Source: Solirubrobacterales bacterium (lineage in GTDB: Bacteria > Actinomycetota > Thermoleophilia > Solirubrobacterales > 70-9). Taken from it: a stretch of DNA of 64,000 nt. Every line of letters starts with the position of its first letter. Within the stretch, counting starts at the first letter, position 1. The translations under genes were made by a program, and so were the position numbers. Location of the stretch: assembly GCA_025936755.1 (NCBI GenBank), contig JAICSS010000005.1, positions 1 through 64,000 on the forward strand, written 5' to 3'. Below, piece after piece: positions 39,312 through 47,126 of the stretch. Below the pieces are notes generated by a model. That model did no database searches and was not told the DNA's origin. It saw only the letters and a list, made by a program, of their open reading frames with translations.

Positions 39312-40406
39312 ATGACCCAACCGACCTTGGAGGCTGCACGGAAGTTGAGCGAATGGCGCCCGCCGCTGGGCGTCCTCTCCGTCTTCCTGGGATTCGACCC
39401 CGCCGACCGCGGCGGCGCCTGGCGGACCGAGCTGCGCAACGGCCTCGACTCGATCCTCGAGACCCAGCAGGAAGCCGAGCACGATCGCCGGGTGGCGCTG
39501 CGGGCGACGGCGAAACGGCTGACCGAGCGCTTCGAAGACGGCGACCTGCGGCCGCCGCCGCGCGGCGAAGTCGGCTTCGTCGAAGTTTCCGAGAAGGAGG
39601 GGACCGAGCACTGGTTCGGGACCTCGGCGGCGCCCGTCGCCGGCGCCTGCGTCGAGTTCGGCGTCGACCCGGTGGTGGCGCCCCTGCTGGACATCTGCGG
39701 CCACGGCGCCGCCCGCGGGGTGGCCCTGCTCTCCTCCGAGCGGGTGCGGCTGCTGCGCTGCGCCGAAGGTTCGCTCGAGGAGCTGGAGGACTGGGAGTTG
39801 AGCGTCACCATGCTCGACTGGCGCGAGCGCAAAGCGCAGAGCGCCAACAACCCCGCCCGCGCCCAGGGCGTCAGCTCCTCCGGCCACGACCAGTTCGAAG
39901 AGCGGCTCGACCACAACCGCCAGCGCTTCCTCGGCGAGTGCGGCGGCTTCGCCGCCCGGCGCCTGGAGAAGGACGGGATCGACGAGCTGATCGTCTTCGG
40001 CCCGAGCAGGGACCGGGAGAGCTTCGAATCCGGCTTCGGCTCGCCGCAGGCGGAGCTGACACCCGGCGGCGACCAGGACCTGATCTCCGTGCCGACGGGG
40101 AAGCTGACCGACGTCGTCTCCGAGGTGGTCGGCCGCCTCGACGAGGAGCGCGACCGCGCCGTCGTCGAGCGGGCGCTGGCAGGCGCGAAGGGCGGCAGCC
40201 GCGGCGCCGCCGGCCTGCAGGAGGTGAAAGAGGCGCTGGCCGAAGGCCGCGTCGACCACCTCGTCTTCGACGGCGCGATCGGCCAGGAGGGCGAGTCGCT
40301 GATTCGCGGGGCGATGTCCAGCGGCGCCCGGGTGACGGTGGTCCGCGAGGAGCAGGCGGCGGCGCTGCACGAGGCCGAGGGAGTGGCGGCGATCCTGCGC
40401 TACTGA
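39312..40406 (+). CDS. baeRF-family (eRF1/Vms1-like) protein
   Basis: 364 residues from ATG 39312, preceded by AAGGAGGAGG. The three-part layout follows bacterial/archaeal eRF1-like proteins: an N-terminal domain with VLSVFLGFDPADRGGAW, a central domain with RGVALLSSERVRLLRCAEGS and DQFEERLDHNRQRFLGECGG, and a C-terminal domain ending in ARVTVVREEQAAALHEAEGV and AAILRY, the usual family terminus. Relatives such as Vms1 act as peptidyl-tRNA hydrolases in ribosome rescue; no GGQ motif is visible, so the activity is uncertain. It is controlled by a SigB-type promoter. Confidence 0.8.
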   Translation: MTQPTLEAARKLSEWRPPLGVLSVFLGFDPADRGGAWRTELRNGLDSILETQQEAEHDRRVALRATAKRLTERFEDGDLRPPPRGEVGFVEVSEKEGTEHWFGTSAAPVAGACVEFGVDPVVAPLLDICGHGAARGVALLSSERVRLLRCAEGSLEELEDWELSVTMLDWRERKAQSANNPARAQGVSSSGHDQFEERLDHNRQRFLGECGGFAARRLEKDGIDELIVFGPSRDRESFESGFGSPQAELTPGGDQDLISVPTGKLTDVVSEVVGRLDEERDRAVVERALAGAKGGSRGAAGLQEVKEALAEGRVDHLVFDGAIGQEGESLIRGAMSSGARVTVVREEQAAALHEAEGVAAILRY

Positions 40407-40428
40407 CCCGAAGTGTGACCTCCGTCCG

Positions 40429-40454
40429 GTTCGCTGCCCCGGCGCCAGGGGTAT
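40429..40454 (+). promoter_or_regulatory. SigB/SigF-type promoter for the CsbD-like gene
   Basis: GTTC (40429-40432), 16-nt spacer, GGGTAT (40449-40454). The -10 is an exact match to the GGGTAT consensus; the -35 has one mismatch. The TTG start is at 40496. Confidence 0.6.
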
Positions 40455-40495
40455 GGGGTACGAGGAAGCCAGGAGAGAATCGGAAGGAGACGAGC

Positions 40496-40996
40496 TTGAC
40501 TGAGCAAGAGCGGGTCGCCGGAGGCCCCCTGGGCAAGATGGTCGGCAGGGCCAAGCAGGCGGCCGGCGCGGCGCTTGGGCGCGAAGACCTCCAGCGCGAG
40601 GGAAAGTTGCAGGAGGTCCAGGCCGACGCCCGGGCCGAGGCGGCCGCGAAGGCGGCCGCGGCCGAGCGGCGGGAAGAGGAAGCCGAGATCGAGGCCGAGC
40701 GGGCCGAGACCGAGGCCGAGCGCCACGAGGTGGAGCTGGAGGCGGCCGAGATCGAGGCCGAAGAGGAGGCCGAGCGCCGGCGGGCCGAAGAGGAGCGCGA
40801 AGCCGCCAACCGAGCCCAGGCCGAGAAAGTCGCGGCCGAGCGCCAGCGGCTGGCGGGCGAAGACCGCGCCGCCGCCAAACGCCAGCAGGCCGCAGCGGAG
40901 AAGGGCGAGGCGACGCGCGAGGCGGCGGAGCTGCAGCGCGAAGCCGACCGAGCCGAAGCGGCTGCCGCCGCGATCGATCCCAAGGAGGAGAGCTAG
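40496..40996 (+). CDS. CsbD-like N-terminus with long charged coiled coil
   Basis: 166 residues from TTG 40496, chosen because GGAAGGAG (40482-40489) lies 6 nt upstream. Residues about 10-40 (GKMVGRAKQAAGAALGREDL) resemble the short helical CsbD stress protein motif. The remaining 120 residues are almost purely Ala, Glu, Arg and Gln, predicted as one continuous coiled coil. CsbD is a known SigB-regulated protein in Bacillus; here the gene also has a GGGTAT -10. It is in tandem with a second charged coiled-coil gene. Confidence 0.72.
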   Translation: MTEQERVAGGPLGKMVGRAKQAAGAALGREDLQREGKLQEVQADARAEAAAKAAAAERREEEAEIEAERAETEAERHEVELEAAEIEAEEEAERRRAEEEREAANRAQAEKVAAERQRLAGEDRAAAKRQQAAAEKGEATREAAELQREADRAEAAAAAIDPKEES

Positions 40997-40999
40997 AAG

Positions 41000-41617
41000 A
41001 TGGCAATGCCGAAAATTTCCAAGACGATCTTCGACTCGTCGCTGAAGCTCGCGAGGACGCCGTTCGACGTCGCCCTCGGCGCTCTCGGCGGCTCCGACTC
41101 CCAGGCCAAGCTCCTGCTCGACCGCGCCGAGGCCGGCGCCCGCAGCGCCACCGGCGTCCTCTTCGCCGACCCTGAGCTGCGGGAAGAAGGCCGGGCGGCG
41201 CTGCTGGCGACGAAGCAGCGCGAGCGGGCGACCGAGCTGCGCGAGCAGGCCGAGGTCCAGGAGCGCGAGGCCGCCGAGCGAGAGGCGCGGACCGCCGAAG
41301 CCGCCGGGAAAGCGGCCGCGGAGGCCCGCCGCGCGGCCGAGCAGGAGAAGCGGAGCGCCGAGAAACGGCGGCGCGAGCGCGAGGCGCGGGCGAAGAAGAC
41401 CGAGGCCGGGAAGAAGGAGAAAGCGGCGAAGGCCGCGAGCAAAGTCAAACGCGCCAACGCCAAGGCCGAGAAGACCGCGCAGCTGGAGAAGCTCGAGGCC
41501 AGGGAAGAGAGCATCGAGGCCAAGGAGGAGGCAGCCGCGACCGAGCGCGAGGCCGAGCGGCTGCGGCAGGCCGCCGCGGGGGCCAAGAAGGCGCGGAAGA
41601 ACGGTAACGGGAGCTAA
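41000..41617 (+). CDS. Ala/Glu/Lys/Arg-rich coiled-coil protein
   Basis: 205 residues from ATG 41000, 3 nt after the CsbD-like gene; ATG 41006 is an alternative. The first 60 residues are mixed (ISKTIFDSSLKLARTPFDVA, LLLDRAEAGARSATGVLFAD); from residue 70 on it is a highly charged helix ending in a Lys/Asn/Gly tail. I do not recognise a family. Co-transcription with the CsbD-like gene suggests the two proteins interact through their coiled coils. Biased composition limits homology inference. Confidence 0.7.
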   Translation: MAMPKISKTIFDSSLKLARTPFDVALGALGGSDSQAKLLLDRAEAGARSATGVLFADPELREEGRAALLATKQRERATELREQAEVQEREAAEREARTAEAAGKAAAEARRAAEQEKRSAEKRRREREARAKKTEAGKKEKAAKAASKVKRANAKAEKTAQLEKLEAREESIEAKEEAAATEREAERLRQAAAGAKKARKNGNGS

Positions 41618-41640: not shown

Positions 41641-42045
41641 TCAGCCCTCGCGCCCCATCGGCTCCCTGGGCTCGAGGTAGAAGACCTCGGCGCAGACGTC
41701 GACGTCCGCGTCGAGGCCGCTGATGAAGGCGCGGACCCTGCGGCCGGTCAGGCGCTCGACGATCTCGGTGAATTTGTCGTGGGTCGCGGCCTGGAAGTAG
41801 AGCCGGGTGTCGCGCAGGCGCTGGTGCTCTCCGAGATCGGCGAGGCTGCGCTCGGCCGGGGTGAAGGTGTTCTCCAGCGAGCAGATGACGATGTCGGGAC
41901 CGGCGAACTCGGTCCGCGCTTTCGTCGGCCCGCGCCCGAAGAGTTCCTTGTAGAGGCGGACCATTTCGCGCGAAATCTCGGCCCGGATCGACTCGAACCC
42001 GTTGTGGTCGCCGCTCTGCGGCTCGATCGTCTGTTCCTGTGCCAT
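41641..42045 (-). CDS. DUF2294 family protein
   Basis: 134 residues, ATG at 42045. The family signature is visible: EISREMVRLYKELFGRGPTK, ARTEFAGPDIVICSLENTFT and AERSLADLGEHQRLRDTRLY, followed by TGRRVRAFISGLDADVDVCA. Family members have been annotated, without firm basis known to me, as sodium-transport-related; the function is unknown. It is divergent from the CDGSH operon, with a 66-bp gap that contains GGGTAG-like elements on both strands. Confidence 0.83.
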   Translation of the reverse strand: MAQEQTIEPQSGDHNGFESIRAEISREMVRLYKELFGRGPTKARTEFAGPDIVICSLENTFTPAERSLADLGEHQRLRDTRLYFQAATHDKFTEIVERLTGRRVRAFISGLDADVDVCAEVFYLEPREPMGREG

Positions 42046-42073
42046 GTCGATTTCCTACCCCGCGACCGCAACG

Positions 42074-42098
42074 ATTTATCACTCCAATCTGCGGGTAG
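42074..42098 (+). promoter_or_regulatory. SigB/SigF-type promoter for the CDGSH operon
   Basis: ATTT (42074-42077), 15-nt spacer, GGGTAG (42093-42098). One mismatch in the -35. The ATG at 42112 is 13 nt after the -10, implying a leader of only a few nucleotides. Confidence 0.5.
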
Positions 42099-42111: not shown

Positions 42112-42348
42112 ATGCCAGCAGACGACGGGTCGCCCCCAGCCACCATCACCCCCTATCCCGACGGTCCTTACCTGGTCCGCGGCGACTTCGCCTTGACCGA
42201 CCAGCAGGGCAACGAGCTGCCGCTGGAGCGGCGGACGATCGCGCTCTGCCGTTGCGGCAAGTCCCGCATGCGCCCGTTTTGCGACGGCACCCACAAGCTG
42301 ATCGGGTTCAAGGCCCCGAGCGGGCCGGAGCCATGGCCGGGCGCCTGA
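42112..42348 (+). CDS. CDGSH-type iron-sulfur protein
   Basis: 78 residues from ATG 42112. The 2Fe-2S motif is complete: CRCGKSRMRPFCDGTH provides three Cys and one His ligand, as in mitoNEET and its bacterial relatives, followed by KLIGF. The N-terminal part (YLVRGDFALTDQQGNEL) is the usual bacterial extension. Such clusters are redox-active and acid-labile. It overlaps the next gene by 16 bp, suggesting electron delivery to the diiron-type oxygenase encoded there. Confidence 0.92.
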   Translation: MPADDGSPPATITPYPDGPYLVRGDFALTDQQGNELPLERRTIALCRCGKSRMRPFCDGTHKLIGFKAPSGPEPWPGA

Positions 42349-43352
42349 TCGAGCTTCCCGCGCCGCGGGGCCCCCTCAGCGAGCAGCTGTTCGAGGCCCT
42401 GGCAGGGCCCCCGCACACCCGCCTCGCCTGTCCGGGCCTGATCGAGCCGAGCGACGCGCTGGCCGACGAGGACCTGCAGCTCGCCCTCTACGTCGCCTAC
42501 GAGCTCCACTACAGCTCCATCCGCGGCGTCGACGAAAGCTGGGAGTGGTCGCCTTCGCTGCTCTCCTTCCGGGGCGCCCTGGAACGCCCGTTCGAAGAAG
42601 CCGTGGCGGAGCTGGTGCCGCCGGCCGAAGCGGCCGAGCTGGAGTCGGTCGGCGCCGCCCTGCAGGAGATCGTCGCCCGGGACCCCGGCCCGCCGCTCTC
42701 CCGCTACGTCGAGACCCAGGGGACCCGGGAGCGGGTGCTCGAGCAGGTCGTCCACCGCTCCGCCTACCAGCTGAAGGAGGCCGATCCGCATTCCTGGGCG
42801 ATCCCGCGCCTCTCGCCGCGGCCGAAGACGGCCCTGCTCGAGGTCCAGTTCGACGAGTACGGCGGCGGCAGCGGCGAGCGCATGCACTCGGCCCTGTTCG
42901 CGAAGACGATGGCGGGCCTCGGGCTCGATCCGACCTACGGGCGGTACCTCGACCGCTGGCCGGGGATCACCCTGGCGACCGTCAATTTGGTCACCAACTT
43001 CGGGCTGCACCGGCGCCGCCGCGGCGCCCTCGTCGGCCACCTCGCCGGCTTCGAGATGACCTCCTCGATCCCCAACCGCCGCTACGGCAACGCCCTGCGC
43101 CGGCTCGGGTACGGCGAGGAGGTGACGCACTTCTACGACGAGCACGTCGAGGCCGACGCCGTCCACGAGAACATCGCCGCCTGGGACCTGGCGGGCGGGC
43201 TCGCCGCCGAGGAGCCGGAGGTTGCCGCCGACATCCTCTTCGGCGCCCGGGCCCTGCTGCAGGTCGAGGCCCGCTGGGCGCGCCACCTGATGGATTCCTG
43301 GGAGCGGGGGGAGACGTCGCTGCGCACCCCCCTGGTCCCCGCCGCCGCGTGA
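42333..43352 (+). CDS. Heme-oxygenase-like (HDO-type) iron-containing redox enzyme
   Basis: 339 residues from ATG 42333. An all-helical protein with metal-ligand candidates spaced as in HDO-fold oxygenases: YELHYSS (Glu-x-x-His-type), LLEVQFDEYGGGSGERMH, and HFYDEHVEADAVHE. Known relatives (UndA, SznF central domain) are diiron or iron oxygenases acting on small molecules; this member's substrate is unknown. Overlap with the CDGSH gene upstream and GTG overlap with the glycosyltransferase downstream mark a three-gene operon. Confidence 0.82.
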   Translation: MAGRLIELPAPRGPLSEQLFEALAGPPHTRLACPGLIEPSDALADEDLQLALYVAYELHYSSIRGVDESWEWSPSLLSFRGALERPFEEAVAELVPPAEAAELESVGAALQEIVARDPGPPLSRYVETQGTRERVLEQVVHRSAYQLKEADPHSWAIPRLSPRPKTALLEVQFDEYGGGSGERMHSALFAKTMAGLGLDPTYGRYLDRWPGITLATVNLVTNFGLHRRRRGALVGHLAGFEMTSSIPNRRYGNALRRLGYGEEVTHFYDEHVEADAVHENIAAWDLAGGLAAEEPEVAADILFGARALLQVEARWARHLMDSWERGETSLRTPLVPAAA

Positions 43353-44329
43353 GCGTCCCGCTCGACCTCAGCTACGTGGTGCCGGTGCGCTGGCGCGACG
43401 GCGAGCAGCGGCGGGAGCTGGCGAGCTACCTGGCCGAGATCGCCCCGCACTGCGCCGAGACGATCGTCGTCGACGGCTCTCCGGAGGAGGTCTTCGCCGC
43501 CAACGCCGAAGCCTGGGGCGGCCTCGTCACCCACGTTGCGCCGCGCCGGGACGAGCACTGGCTGATGGGCAAGGTCTCGGGGGTCCGGACGGGGATCCGG
43601 CTCGCCTCGCGCGAGCGGGTCGTGATCGCCGACGACGACGTCCGCTACGAGCTCGAGGCGCTGCGGCGGACGGCGCGCCTGCTCGACGCCCACGACCTGG
43701 TGCGCCCGCAGAACTACTTCAGCTCGCTGCCCTGGCACGCGCGCTGGGACACCGCCCGCACCCTGCTCAACCGCTGCTTCGGGCGCGACTACCCGGGGAC
43801 GCTGGCGGTGCGGCGCTCGCGGCTGGTGGCGATGGGACTCTACGACGGCGACGTCCTCTTCGAGAACCTGGAGCTGATCCGCACCGTCCGCGCCCACGGC
43901 GGCAGCGACGTCGCCCCGCTCGACCTCTACGTCGCCCGGACCCCGCCTTCGGCCGCCCACTTCTGGGGCCAGCGCACCCGCCAGGCCTACGACGACTTCG
44001 CGCTGCCGCTGCGGATGGCGCTCTGGCTCGCGGTCGTCCCGCTGCTGGCCTGGCGCCGGCGCCAGGCGCTGCCTGCGACCGCGGTGGCGATCGCATGCGC
44101 CGAGCGCGGCCGCCGGCGCGCCCGCGGCGCAGCCTTCTTCCCCGCCTCCTCCTCCCTGCTGGCGCCGGTCTGGGTGCTCGAGCGCGGGGTCTGTGCCTGG
44201 CTGGCGGTGCTCCAGCGCCTCCGTTTCGGCGGCGTTCGCTACGGCGACTCGGTGATCCCCGTCGCCGCCCACTCCGAGCGGCAGCTGCGCCGGCGGCTCG
44301 AGCGGAGGCCCCAGCCGGCTAGGAGCTAG
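43349..44329 (+). CDS. Membrane-associated GT2-like glycosyltransferase
   Basis: 326 residues from GTG 43349 (GTGA overlap). GT2-like features: LSYVVPVRWRDGEQRRELA, ETIVVDGSPEEVFAANAEAW, RVVIADDDVRYELEALRR with the DDD metal site, and GTLAVRRSRLVAMGLYDGDV, then FENLELIRTVRAHGG. Hydrophobic segments near 220-240 and 275-290 suggest membrane attachment. The pairing with a CDGSH protein and an HDO enzyme points to synthesis of a modified lipid or glycolipid, as inference. It is distinct from the operon at 2.6-30 kb. Confidence 0.8.
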   Translation: MSVPLDLSYVVPVRWRDGEQRRELASYLAEIAPHCAETIVVDGSPEEVFAANAEAWGGLVTHVAPRRDEHWLMGKVSGVRTGIRLASRERVVIADDDVRYELEALRRTARLLDAHDLVRPQNYFSSLPWHARWDTARTLLNRCFGRDYPGTLAVRRSRLVAMGLYDGDVLFENLELIRTVRAHGGSDVAPLDLYVARTPPSAAHFWGQRTRQAYDDFALPLRMALWLAVVPLLAWRRRQALPATAVAIACAERGRRRARGAAFFPASSSLLAPVWVLERGVCAWLAVLQRLRFGGVRYGDSVIPVAAHSERQLRRRLERRPQPARS

Positions 44330-44695
44330 CTAGGCGGCGGGCTGGAGCGGCGGGCCGTCCTCGATCAAGGCGTAGGGCAGCCTCTCCTCGAGCCCGGTCA
44401 GCTTCAGCACGCGGCGCACCCCCGCCGTCTCGCTGGGAAGGAACTCGAGCCGGCGCGCGTCCGGGCGGCCGAGCGCCGTTATCAACAGGGCGATGCCGGT
44501 CGAATCGAGGAACTCCAGCTTGCTGAGGTCGATCAGCACCGGCCGGTCCGAGCCGAGGACCTTCTCGATCTGCGATTCCGCCGTGCAGGCATTGGAGAGG
44601 TCGAGCTCGCCGCGCAGGCAGAGGCGGAGGCGCTGGCCTTCGTCTTGTTCGTCGACGACGAGCAAGCCGTCTCGAACGGATGAATCGCTGGGCAC
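44330..44695 (-). CDS. STAS-domain anti-sigma factor antagonist
   Basis: 121 residues from GTG 44695; the reverse strand has GGAGG six nt upstream of this GTG, so the longer frame to 44740 is not used. STAS fold: LRLCLRGELDLSNACTAESQ, VLIDLSKLEFLDSTGIALLI with the phosphorylatable Ser of DSTG, ending with VLKLTGLEERLPYALIEDG. Such proteins free a SigB/SigF-type sigma factor by binding its anti-sigma kinase when dephosphorylated. A MEDS/HATPase kinase-like gene lies just across the divergent region at 45201. Confidence 0.9.
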   Translation of the reverse strand: MPSDSSVRDGLLVVDEQDEGQRLRLCLRGELDLSNACTAESQIEKVLGSDRPVLIDLSKLEFLDSTGIALLITALGRPDARRLEFLPSETAGVRRVLKLTGLEERLPYALIEDGPPLQPAA

Positions 44696-44717
44696 TGGGG
44701 ACCTCCATCTTGGAAAA

Positions 44718-44734
44718 TTTCGGAAGTCCCGAAA
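44718..44734. repeat. Palindrome TTTCGG-AAGTC-CCGAAA upstream of the STAS gene
   Basis: A perfect 6-bp inverted repeat with a 5-nt spacer, 23 bp before the STAS start codon. The position fits an operator or a short hairpin in the STAS leader. It does not match the SigB-type promoter pattern. Confidence 0.4.
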
Positions 44735-44822
44735 CGTCACACGATGGACGCCGCAGTCTTACCTCGCAGCTGAAGTGCCGGCCGGTCGGAAATGGCGGAC
44801 CGGCAAGACCCACTTGACGATG

Positions 44823-44999
44823 CTAGCGCAGTCGGGGAACCGGGCCGGAAGTCGGCGAAAGTCGTTTCCGCGCGGCGCGGACTCGCTGCAGCAGAACGTC
44901 GCGCTTGAGGGCGGGCCCGATCTCTGGGCCGCGAACTCCGGCTCGGGCGCGGGTCGAAGCTTGGGTACTGGCTTGGCTACTGGGGGGTGGGGCGGTCAT
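44823..44999 (-). CDS. Possible 58-residue basic small protein
   Basis: ATG at 44999 is preceded on the minus strand by GGAGG with a 6-nt spacer, one of the best ribosome-binding sites in the area. The product begins with a Ser/Thr/Ala-rich segment (MTAPPPSSQASTQASTRARA) and ends in a basic helix-prone part (ALKRDVLLQRVRAARKRL). It stops at TAG 44823, 127 nt before the STAS gene in the same direction. There is no recognised family; it is called on the start signal and location between two sigma-regulator genes. It could be chance. Confidence 0.4.
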   Translation of the reverse strand: MTAPPPSSQASTQASTRARAGVRGPEIGPALKRDVLLQRVRAARKRLSPTSGPVPRLR

Positions 45000-45155
45000 T
45001 TCTTCCTCCGGCTTTGAAATTGGGCGATCTGGATCTGGTACCTCTCCCAATCTCCGTGCGATGCCCTGAGAAGTGAGCGGTGTTCTCCCGACGCCAACTG
45101 CGCTGTGACAGCTGCGCCAAGAGTCGAGTACCCAGTGACGTAGCGCACAAACCTC
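45000..45155. other. Gene-free part of the STAS / MEDS divergent region
   Basis: Within the roughly 500-bp region between GTG 44695 and ATG 45201 the only open frame I support is the small one at 44823-44999. This remaining stretch is less GC-rich and holds ATTGGG (45018-45023) and CCCAAT (45045-45050) in inverted orientation. I see no gene or RNA in it. Confidence 0.4.
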
Positions 45156-45180
45156 GTTTCGATCCAGGTAGAGCGGGAAC
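45156..45180 (+). promoter_or_regulatory. SigB/SigF-type promoter for the MEDS/HATPase gene
   Basis: GTTT (45156-45159), 15-nt spacer, GGGAAC (45175-45180), 20 bp before ATG 45201. If functional, the candidate anti-sigma gene is under control of its own sigma factor, as is common for SigB regulators. Confidence 0.5.
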
Positions 45181-45200
45181 ACGACTTGGCAGAGGTAGCG

Positions 45201-46133
45201 ATGGAACACCCCGGTTTTCAACACGAAGCCCTGATCTACGACGGGCCCGCCGAGTACCTGGCGGGGACGGTTCCCTTCATCCAGGCCGGGATCGAGGCCG
45301 GCCAGCCGGTTCTGGTCGCGGTCGGGCCGGAGCAGGCCGCGCTTCTGCGGCGCGAGCTGGGCGCCGACGCCAGCCGGGTCGACTTCACCGATATGCGCGA
45401 GGTCGGTCGCAACCCGGCGACGATCATCCCGCTCTGGCGTGAGTTCGTCGATGCGGCTGGCGGCAGGCCGGTGCTCGGGATCGGAGAACCGGTCTGGGCC
45501 TCCCGCAGCGATGCGGCGCTCGAGGAGTGCCGGCGCCACGAGTCCCTGCTCAACGTCGCCTTCGACGGCGGCCCGGCCTGGGACCTCCTCTGTCCCTACG
45601 ACGCCGTCTCGATCGGCGACGACATCATCGAGAAGGTGGCGCAATCGCACCCCTGCCTCCGGCGCAGGGGGCGCCGCGAACCGAGCGCCAGGTTCGAGCC
45701 CAGCCCCGATTGCTTCGCCGGCGAGCTGCCGCCGCCTTCGGCGACGCCGGAAACGTTCGAGTTCGAGGAACGCGGGCTCGCCGAGGTCCGCCGCCGGGTC
45801 GCCGCCGCCGCCAGCGAAGTCGGGATGGCCTCCGGCGGGGTGGCCGACGTCGTCACCGCGACCAGCGAGCTCGCCGCCAACAGCGTCGTCCACGGCGGCG
45901 GCGGCGGCGCCCTGCGCCTCTGGCGCGACCAGGGGCGGCTGCTGGTCGAGGTCGAGGACCGGGGCCGAATCGAAGACCCCCTCGTCGGCCGCCTGCGGCC
46001 GGACGTCTCGCAGCAGGGCGGTCGCGGCCTCTGGCTCGCCAACAAGCTCTGCGACCTGGTCCAGATCCGCTCCGGCGAGCGGGGCACGAAGGTGCGACTG
46101 CACGCGCTGGCGCCGGAGATGGCCTTCGTCTAG
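45201..46133 (+). CDS. MEDS sensor / HATPase anti-sigma regulator (RsbA-like)
   Basis: 310 residues from ATG 45201 (GAGG five nt upstream), preferred to TTG 45186. Residues about 5-160 are a MEDS domain (FQHEALIYDGPAEYLAGTVP, RVDFTDMREVGRNPATIIPL, ESLLNVAFDGGPAWDLLCPY). Residues about 195-305 are a GHKL ATPase of the RsbW type: VTATSELAANSVVHGGGGGA (N-box), LLVEVEDRGRIEDP (G1) and QQGGRGLWLANKLCDLVQIR (G2). There is no HisKA domain. The architecture matches actinobacterial RsbA-like anti-sigma kinases. It probably binds the stress sigma factor and is countered by the STAS proteins at 44330 and 50006. Confidence 0.88.
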   Translation: MEHPGFQHEALIYDGPAEYLAGTVPFIQAGIEAGQPVLVAVGPEQAALLRRELGADASRVDFTDMREVGRNPATIIPLWREFVDAAGGRPVLGIGEPVWASRSDAALEECRRHESLLNVAFDGGPAWDLLCPYDAVSIGDDIIEKVAQSHPCLRRRGRREPSARFEPSPDCFAGELPPPSATPETFEFEERGLAEVRRRVAAAASEVGMASGGVADVVTATSELAANSVVHGGGGGALRLWRDQGRLLVEVEDRGRIEDPLVGRLRPDVSQQGGRGLWLANKLCDLVQIRSGERGTKVRLHALAPEMAFV

Positions 46134-46175
46134 GGACGAGGCGTGGCTTCCCCCCGTCGCGGGTAGCTGGCGGAC

Positions 46176-47126
46176 ATGCCGGCCAACGACCCCCAGACCC
46201 AGCTCGTCAAGTACCTGACCGACGTCCACTCGATCGAGGAACAGGCGCGGATCCAGATGGAACGCGCGCCGAAGCTCGTCGAGGGCGCGTTCGCCGTGGC
46301 CTTCCAGCGCCACCTCGGGGAGACCGAATCCCAGGAGCAGCGCGTGCGCGGCCGCCTGGAGGCGCACGACGCCTCCCCTTCGAGAATCAAGGACGTCGCC
46401 GGGGCGGCCGGCGGCTTCGGCATGGTCCTCTTCGCCCGCTCGCAACCGGACACGCCGGGCAAGCTGGCGATGCACGCCTTCTCCTACGAGCACATGGAGG
46501 TCGCCGCCTACGAGCTGCTGGGGATCGCCGCCCGCGAAGCCGGCGACGAGGAGACGGCGGCGATGGCGGCGACGATCGCCGGCGAGGAGCGCGAGATGGC
46601 GGGCCGGATCGCCGCCAGCTGGGACGAAGCGGTCGAGCAGGCGCTGGCGCGGGTCGAGCCCGACGACCTCGGCGACACGCTCGACACCTACCTCGCCGAC
46701 GTCCACGCGCTCGAGGGGCAGTCGAAGAAGCTGCTGGAGAAAAGCCGCGAGCTGGACGTGCCGGAGGCGCTGCGCTCGGCTCTCGACCGCCACCTGCGGG
46801 AGACCGAAGGCCACCTGGAGAAGATCGAGCGGCGGCTCGACGACCGCGGCGCCACCCCCTCGGCGATCAAGGACGCGATGCTCCGTCTGGGCGCCCTCAA
46901 CTGGGGCGTCTTCTTCGCCGCCCAGCCAGACACGCCGGCCAAGCTCGCCGGCTTCGCCTACGCGGTCGAGAACCTCGAGGTGGCCGCCTACGAGCTGCTG
47001 CTCCGCGTCGCCCGCCGCGCTGACGACGAGGAGACCGTCACCCTCGCCGAATCGATCCTCGCCGAGGAGCAGGCGGCGGCGAAATCGGTCGCCGACCAGT
47101 GGCCGGTCTCGATGTCGGTCGCCTAA
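46176..47126 (+). CDS. Tandem DUF892 (YciF-like) ferritin-like protein
   Basis: 316 residues from ATG 46176. Two homologous halves of about 155 residues: half one LVKYLTDVHSIEEQARIQME, DASPSRIKDVAGAAGGFGMV, SYEHMEVAAYELLGIAA; half two LDTYLADVHALEGQSKKLLE, GATPSAIKDAMLRLGALNWG, AVENLEVAAYELLLRVA. Each has the helix pairs of DUF892, a stress-related ferritin-like fold. Single-domain proteins are the norm, so this is a fused duplication. It probably acts in oxidative or osmotic stress. The downstream gene is convergent. Confidence 0.88.
   Translation: MPANDPQTQLVKYLTDVHSIEEQARIQMERAPKLVEGAFAVAFQRHLGETESQEQRVRGRLEAHDASPSRIKDVAGAAGGFGMVLFARSQPDTPGKLAMHAFSYEHMEVAAYELLGIAAREAGDEETAAMAATIAGEEREMAGRIAASWDEAVEQALARVEPDDLGDTLDTYLADVHALEGQSKKLLEKSRELDVPEALRSALDRHLRETEGHLEKIERRLDDRGATPSAIKDAMLRLGALNWGVFFAAQPDTPAKLAGFAYAVENLEVAAYELLLRVARRADDEETVTLAESILAEEQAAAKSVADQWPVSMSVA

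Follow-up and report, generated by a model that had tools for sequence, protein, structure and literature searches.

What would a CDGSH-type protein do beside a heme-oxygenase-like dimetal oxygenase (HDO) whose gene overlaps its own? The question is raised by three genes in a 64,000-nucleotide (nt) stretch of a Solirubrobacterales genome (contig JAICSS010000005.1; "the window" denotes this whole stretch). The CDGSH gene (42112-42348, ATG start, 78 amino acids [aa]; zf-CDGSH PF09360, E 3.8e-19) overlaps by 16 nt the HDO gene (42333-43352, ATG start, 339 aa), whose sole Pfam domain is Haem_oxygenas_2 (PF14518, E 5.7e-57). The HDO gene in turn shares 4 nt (GTGA) with a gene for a glycosyltransferase family 2 (GT2)-like protein (43349-44329, GTG start, 326 aa), which matches Glycos_transf_2 (PF00535) below threshold, at E 0.0016. 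All three genes run in the same direction on the plus strand, and the overlapping operon described in an earlier sequence-only reading of this DNA is exact in its coordinates and overlaps.

HDOs form a superfamily of >10,000 members (PMC13108848), and their assays rely on artificial reductants. This pair joins the question of their native electron donors to that of the cellular partners of bacterial CDGSH proteins, in a locus where the former can be put to the test. We find a genuine stress module that has been conserved, built from components of known kinds whose association is new to the literature searched. No paper was found that contains both "CDGSH" and "heme oxygenase-like," in a search that left most subscription journals outside its reach. 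The account we favor, tentatively, is that of a CDGSH-powered N-oxygenase made under general stress, in which a diiron oxygenase like SznF, RohS, and HrmI would have a dedicated [2Fe-2S] CDGSH partner.

The first line of evidence is the conservation of the pair. Our comparison covered 80 named loci from Solirubrobacterales, Micrococcales, Micromonosporales, Streptosporangiales, and other groups, and a wider set of 149 loci or homologues; gene calls based on GC content at third codon positions (GC3) are approximate in these GC-rich loci, and the counts rest on matches to family hidden Markov models. By single-sequence search, 30 of the 101 genomes examined in the order hold the HDO family, 27 of them in full; a profile search of the phylum, Actinomycetota, finds it in 79 of 396 genomes, where the weakest matches are remote relatives. 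Every one of the 27 genomes with a full HDO also has a CDGSH gene, compared with 19 of the 74 others (Fisher 1.6e-12, uncorrected for relatedness). The two genes adjoin in all 26 loci of the order where both could be mapped together, and in the 27th genome, where the HDO copy is split, CDGSH lies ~1.1 kb away from it. Among the named loci, 74 of the 80 have a CDGSH gene no more than 2.8 kb from the HDO gene, and several of the remaining six stop at contig edges.

The order and orientation of the genes vary while their proximity is kept. Counting add-on genes, the named loci show more than 20 distinct arrangements, with CDGSH and HDO either co-directional or opposed. These include, with arrowheads giving direction, HDO>GT2>CDGSH> in Arthrobacter, Pseudarthrobacter, and Cellulomonas, HDO>GT2> <CDGSH in Nonomuraea and Streptosporangium, HDO> <CDGSH in Micromonospora, HDO>CDGSH> in Cellulomonas, and <CDGSH HDO> in Actinoplanes, alongside the CDGSH>HDO>GT2> order of the window operon. 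Because adjacency is retained through this repeated reshuffling, the data indicate that it is under selection. A lack of conservation of the trio had been named beforehand as part of what would refute the sequence-only reading; the trio is in fact kept far beyond chance, so that this check does not refute it. On the 62-kb Curtobacterium plasmid pW21, HDO and CDGSH occur alone, with coding regions that overlap by 4 nt (PGAP annotation), which suggests that the pair can be mobile as a unit; a Streptomyces plasmid carries HDO, CDGSH, and a HemK2 methyltransferase together (PGAP annotation). Genes of the RES and SIR2 families lie near the pW21 pair. No HDO-CDGSH fusion was present among the fetched homologous loci, and a search for virus-borne copies found none. 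Three loci (L051, L060, and L066) have an NAD-kinase-like gene between HDO and CDGSH that scores below the NCBIfam equivalog cut-offs, and four genomes (G177, G205, G330, and G390) have two HDO copies, those of G330 being divergent neighbors.

The second line of evidence concerns the oxygenase itself. Its AlphaFold model (predicted local distance difference test [pLDDT] 91.5) has a heme-oxygenase-like helical fold with an N-terminal helical domain as in HrmI, and the top structural matches are all HDOs. HrmI leads with Z 32.8 and a root mean square deviation of 2.2 Å over 305 residues (residues 13-325), followed by SznF (27.1), RohS (26.4), FlcD (24), CADD (19), BesC (16.7), and UndA (16.0), and the Foldseek ranking agrees. 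When the HDO-family profile was run against Protein Data Bank (PDB) sequences, only RohS, HrmI, and SznF matched (E 5e-15 to 1e-12). A UndA-like fatty-acid decarboxylase or a lipid oxidation was considered for this protein and set aside on the basis of the fold ranking.

The model and alignments predict a seven-ligand site with three His and four carboxylates (3H/4C), made up of a core six (E, H, E, H-x3-D-x2-H; E175, H185, E241, H271, D275, and H278) and an auxiliary Glu, E149. All seven are conserved in 148 of the 149 homologues. The exception, L158 (genome G439), has lost nearly all metal ligands and looks like a decayed copy; no CDGSH was found in that genome. Residues R159, K165, R227, and R257 are also invariant, many such basic positions being present in the family. 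Relative to SznF, the spacing of all seven ligands is identical; E149 aligns with E189, 26 residues before E175/E215, and the SznF ligands E215, H225, E281, H311, D315, and H318 correspond to our core six in order. SznF differs in having a C-terminal cupin, and SznF and RohS belong to antibiotic gene clusters, whereas the window HDO sits in a general-stress operon with CDGSH. HrmI (BelK), a lysine N-oxygenase, shares the full-length fold with all six core ligands in register, but at only ~20% identity and as a 3H/3C enzyme without the auxiliary Glu; the published accounts found describe no CDGSH partner for it. SznF E189 and RohS E93 are auxiliary Fe1 ligands (PMC11611611), and the equivalent Glu would mark the window enzyme as a member of the 3H/4C class, of which SznF forms its peroxo state without substrate (PMC13108848). 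Because fold and ligands match those of HrmI, SznF, and RohS, the likelier, and best supported, chemistry would be an N-oxygenation with an amine or amino acid as substrate.

A general-stress promoter of the SigB/SigF type is predicted to drive the operon. On the plus strand at 42073-42098, GATTTA (42073-42078) and GGGTAG (42093-42098) are separated by 14 nt, and the core ATTT-N15-GGGTA (42074-42097) has one mismatch to the consensus GTTT-N15/16-GGGTA. The CDGSH start codon (42112) lies 14 nt beyond the -10 box, and because it is so near, the mRNA is probably close to leaderless. Identical boxes (CGATTTA...GGGTAG) precede the operon in the congener locus L003, although the flanking sequence there is mostly changed. 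Across the family, the strict motif GTTT-N14-18-GGG[AT]A precedes 12 of 148 HDO genes; the antisense strand gives 4 and shuffles an expected 0.15, and for the -10 box alone the three numbers are 64, 21, and 10.6. In homologous loci the motif is likewise enriched ahead of the CDGSH and methyltransferase genes, and the stress-type promoter of the sequence-only reading is thus borne out at the level of motifs. An MpsC-family gene (41641-42045, PF10057) is divergent from the operon and shares a common 66-bp promoter region with it.

The stress connection may extend to Mycobacterium smegmatis. Among the genes that loss of SigF lowers most are MSMEG_1770-1773, including the methylase 1771, together with the GT2 gene MSMEG_1097 and the carboxylate-amine ligase gene MSMEG_5590 (sigF mutant, PMC4694148); MSMEG_1770-1773 and 1097 are also listed in spray-drying expression tables (PMC5445863). 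In the mycobacterial loci L148-L150, a methyltransferase gene is followed by CDGSH, and HDO is opposed with its own promoter. MSMEG_1770-1773 shows the same order: a methylase, a small gene, and then a gene served by a SigF promoter of its own. Unlike the window genes, however, MSMEG_1770-1773 are annotated as conserved hypotheticals, and the likeness comes from gene order alone. The published 28-mer of the MSMEG_1773 promoter is absent from 396 mycobacterial genomes, so M. smegmatis apparently falls outside the sampled genomes and its link to the window operon is one that we infer. Soil bacteria that grow readily carry the pair, as probably does the M. smegmatis SigF regulon.

The CDGSH protein is the only one found in the window's genome. 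By best match (PDB 3tbm, the type-4 protein RsCISD; phmmer E 7.6e-15), motif, and the Lys at its cluster opening, it is assigned to type 4, with a single CxC-x8-CDGxH motif, predicted ligands C46, C48, C57, and H61, and K62 after the His ligand. It shares the ligand set and this Lys with RsCISD; the published account found for RsCISD describes no partner, whereas the window gene is one fixed beside an oxygenase. The typing scheme, including Lys57, and the prevalence of type 4 in Actinobacteria have been described (PMC3174974). As in its family generally, the protein would be a [2Fe-2S] homodimer. The motif is intact in 114 of 126 CDGSH copies near HDOs; of the 12 exceptions, the 10 listed all read CDTSH with unchanged ligand spacing.

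Could this protein be the native donor of its HDO? RohS was assayed in vitro with the artificial reductant phenazine methosulfate (PMS)/NADH (PMC10724926), which leaves the native donor missing. Our best reading of the sequence comparisons is that CDGSH would supply electrons (or iron) to HDO, and the redox pairing proposed in the sequence-only reading is upheld as a lead. HDO positions 270 and 279, which flank the alpha3 ligands H271 and H278, show the strongest association with CDGSH in the HDO protein. Both are Glu in 117 of 125 CDGSH-linked HDOs and mostly T/Q or similar in genomes where no CDGSH was found, an association that traces to ~3 independent CDGSH losses and is nonsignificant on the tree. 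E270/E279 may thus be taken as a lead for CDGSH docking, not as proof. An HDO clade carrying E270T and E279Q has no adjacent CDGSH and mostly none in the genome (L126, L129-L132, L137-L141, L151, and L152).

From what is observed at the locus (the operon, its conserved linkage, the seven-ligand site, the N-oxygenase-like fold, and the stress promoter), we infer the direction of electron flow, the substrate class, the product, and its protective role. The CDGSH homodimer would dock at the flexible metal-binding helix alpha3 and pass single electrons that return the diferric HDO site to the diferrous state. The diferrous site would then bind O2 as a peroxo intermediate, which would N-oxygenate a small amine or amino acid. 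The GT2 of the window organism would presumably glycosylate the product at the membrane; elsewhere among the lineages its place may be held by a methyltransferase and a carboxylate-amine ligase that depends on ATP. The locus would then point to an undescribed stress metabolite. A bolder version, which we hold with more doubt, makes CDGSH the first natural dedicated HDO electron donor, evolved as the obligate redox partner of a stress N-oxygenase that is widespread in actinobacteria. It would dock at alpha3, where E270/E279 lie, and interchangeable tailoring enzymes (GT2, or the ligase with the methyltransferase) would complete an undescribed protective metabolite.

Several points weigh against the CDGSH-powered N-oxygenase. 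In 24 of the 149 loci there is no adjacent CDGSH, some of these lying at contig ends, and ~12 HDO genomes have no CDGSH gene at all, most of them retaining the HDO metal ligands. Electron transfer does not follow from genomic linkage, and cluster donation is a role described for mitoNEET-type proteins too. Likeness by Foldseek/VIA speaks to fold, not to reaction, and the proposed identity of the M. smegmatis locus rests on gene order rather than sequence. A review of the field states that none of the HDOs examined to date requires a protein effector (PMC13108848).

The best of the alternatives, though unlikely, is that CDGSH is a metallochaperone, handing over iron or its [2Fe-2S] cluster, rather than electrons at each turnover, so that the HDO diiron site can be assembled or restored under stress. 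HDO diiron cofactors are very labile (PMC11611611), and the fixed HDO-CDGSH linkage suits chaperone and donor alike. Moreover, positions 270 and 279, altered in CDGSH-free genomes, flank H271/H278 on alpha3, the presumed helix of iron entry. A delivered [2Fe-2S] cluster, however, is not itself a diiron-oxo site, and HDO reactions of this class need an external reductant every cycle, which a chaperone does not give.

It is also conceivable, but rather improbable, that HDO and CDGSH consume O2 or peroxide directly as a reductase or scavenger, with no special metabolite and with neighbors that are merely other stress genes. A parallel is DtpC of Acinetobacter baumannii, an HDO with the E-x9-H spacing of the window enzyme that is in an operon with the catalase gene katE and curbs the oxidative stress brought on by desiccation (PMC13232832). 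The genes adjoining the window operon are of stress or partner-switching type as well. The DtpC report, which does not mention CDGSH, nevertheless has its authors considering a small-molecule product (PMC13232832), the invariant R159, K165, R227, and R257 suggest a substrate pocket, and add-on enzymes recur across lineages.

Those add-on enzymes bear on the pathway of the sequence-only reading, in which electrons from CDGSH would serve to oxidize a lipid or sugar before its glycosylation, and to which we now give little credence. The third operon protein is plausibly a membrane-anchored GT2-like glycosyltransferase of the GT-A fold, an assignment that is weak by sequence (18.8 bits for PF00535, cut-off 23.3) and backed by the model. 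The latter (pLDDT 94.7) combines a GT-A fold with a pair of hydrophobic helices near the C terminus (~220-262 and ~272-293); its best folds are PcManGT, at the top, then ArnC and the hyaluronan and cellulose synthases, and its DDD motif (D95-D96-D97) is invariant in 29 aligned family members. In favor of such a pathway, this membrane-anchored enzyme belongs to the operon; of 101 genomes of the order, no more than five hold its family, each time within the trio. Yet the HDO fold and ligands are those of the N-oxygenase branch, with UndA far behind, and a lipid or sugar substrate is not what HrmI, SznF, and RohS as closest folds would suggest. Nor is glycosylation a set next step: GT2 adjoins HDO in 41 of the 149 loci, has changed state 18 or more times along the HDO tree, and behaves as an optional module that most HDO-CDGSH loci lack.

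At other HDO loci there is a YbdK carboxylate-amine ligase (TIGR02050, 208.6 bits over 176.4) and a HemK2/MTQ2-type methyltransferase (TIGR00537, 109.5 over 87), with an NAD-kinase-like gene in some, and the flanks beyond these add-ons differ by lineage. GT2 occurs together with the ligase or methyltransferase in only 3 of the 149 loci, some of the 149 having been read with 1.5-kb flanks only. Strict exclusivity of the two sets was considered and not adopted, tree-independent pairs being too few for a test.

Co-regulation of stress genes under a shared promoter, with no functional contact, would fit the enrichment of SigB/F promoters at HDO loci, but is very unlikely given that CDGSH adjoins HDO even on the opposite strand, where it is separately transcribed, and as a lone plasmid pair. 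A further candidate considered, CDGSH as an on/off switch that senses redox state, is one on which none of these observations bears.

Downstream of the operon, at 44330-47126, a STAS anti-anti-sigma gene abuts the GT2 stop codon and is followed by a MEDS + HATPase_c_2 (anti-sigma-type) gene and a DUF892 (ferritin-like) gene, a set of partner-switching stress genes. On the other side lie a baeRF-family (bacterial release-factor-like) gene (39312-40406) and, at 41000-41617, a gene for a highly charged Ala/Glu/Lys-rich, coiled-coil-like protein with no Pfam match; a charged stretch similar to that protein is found just upstream of it, at about 40406-40996.
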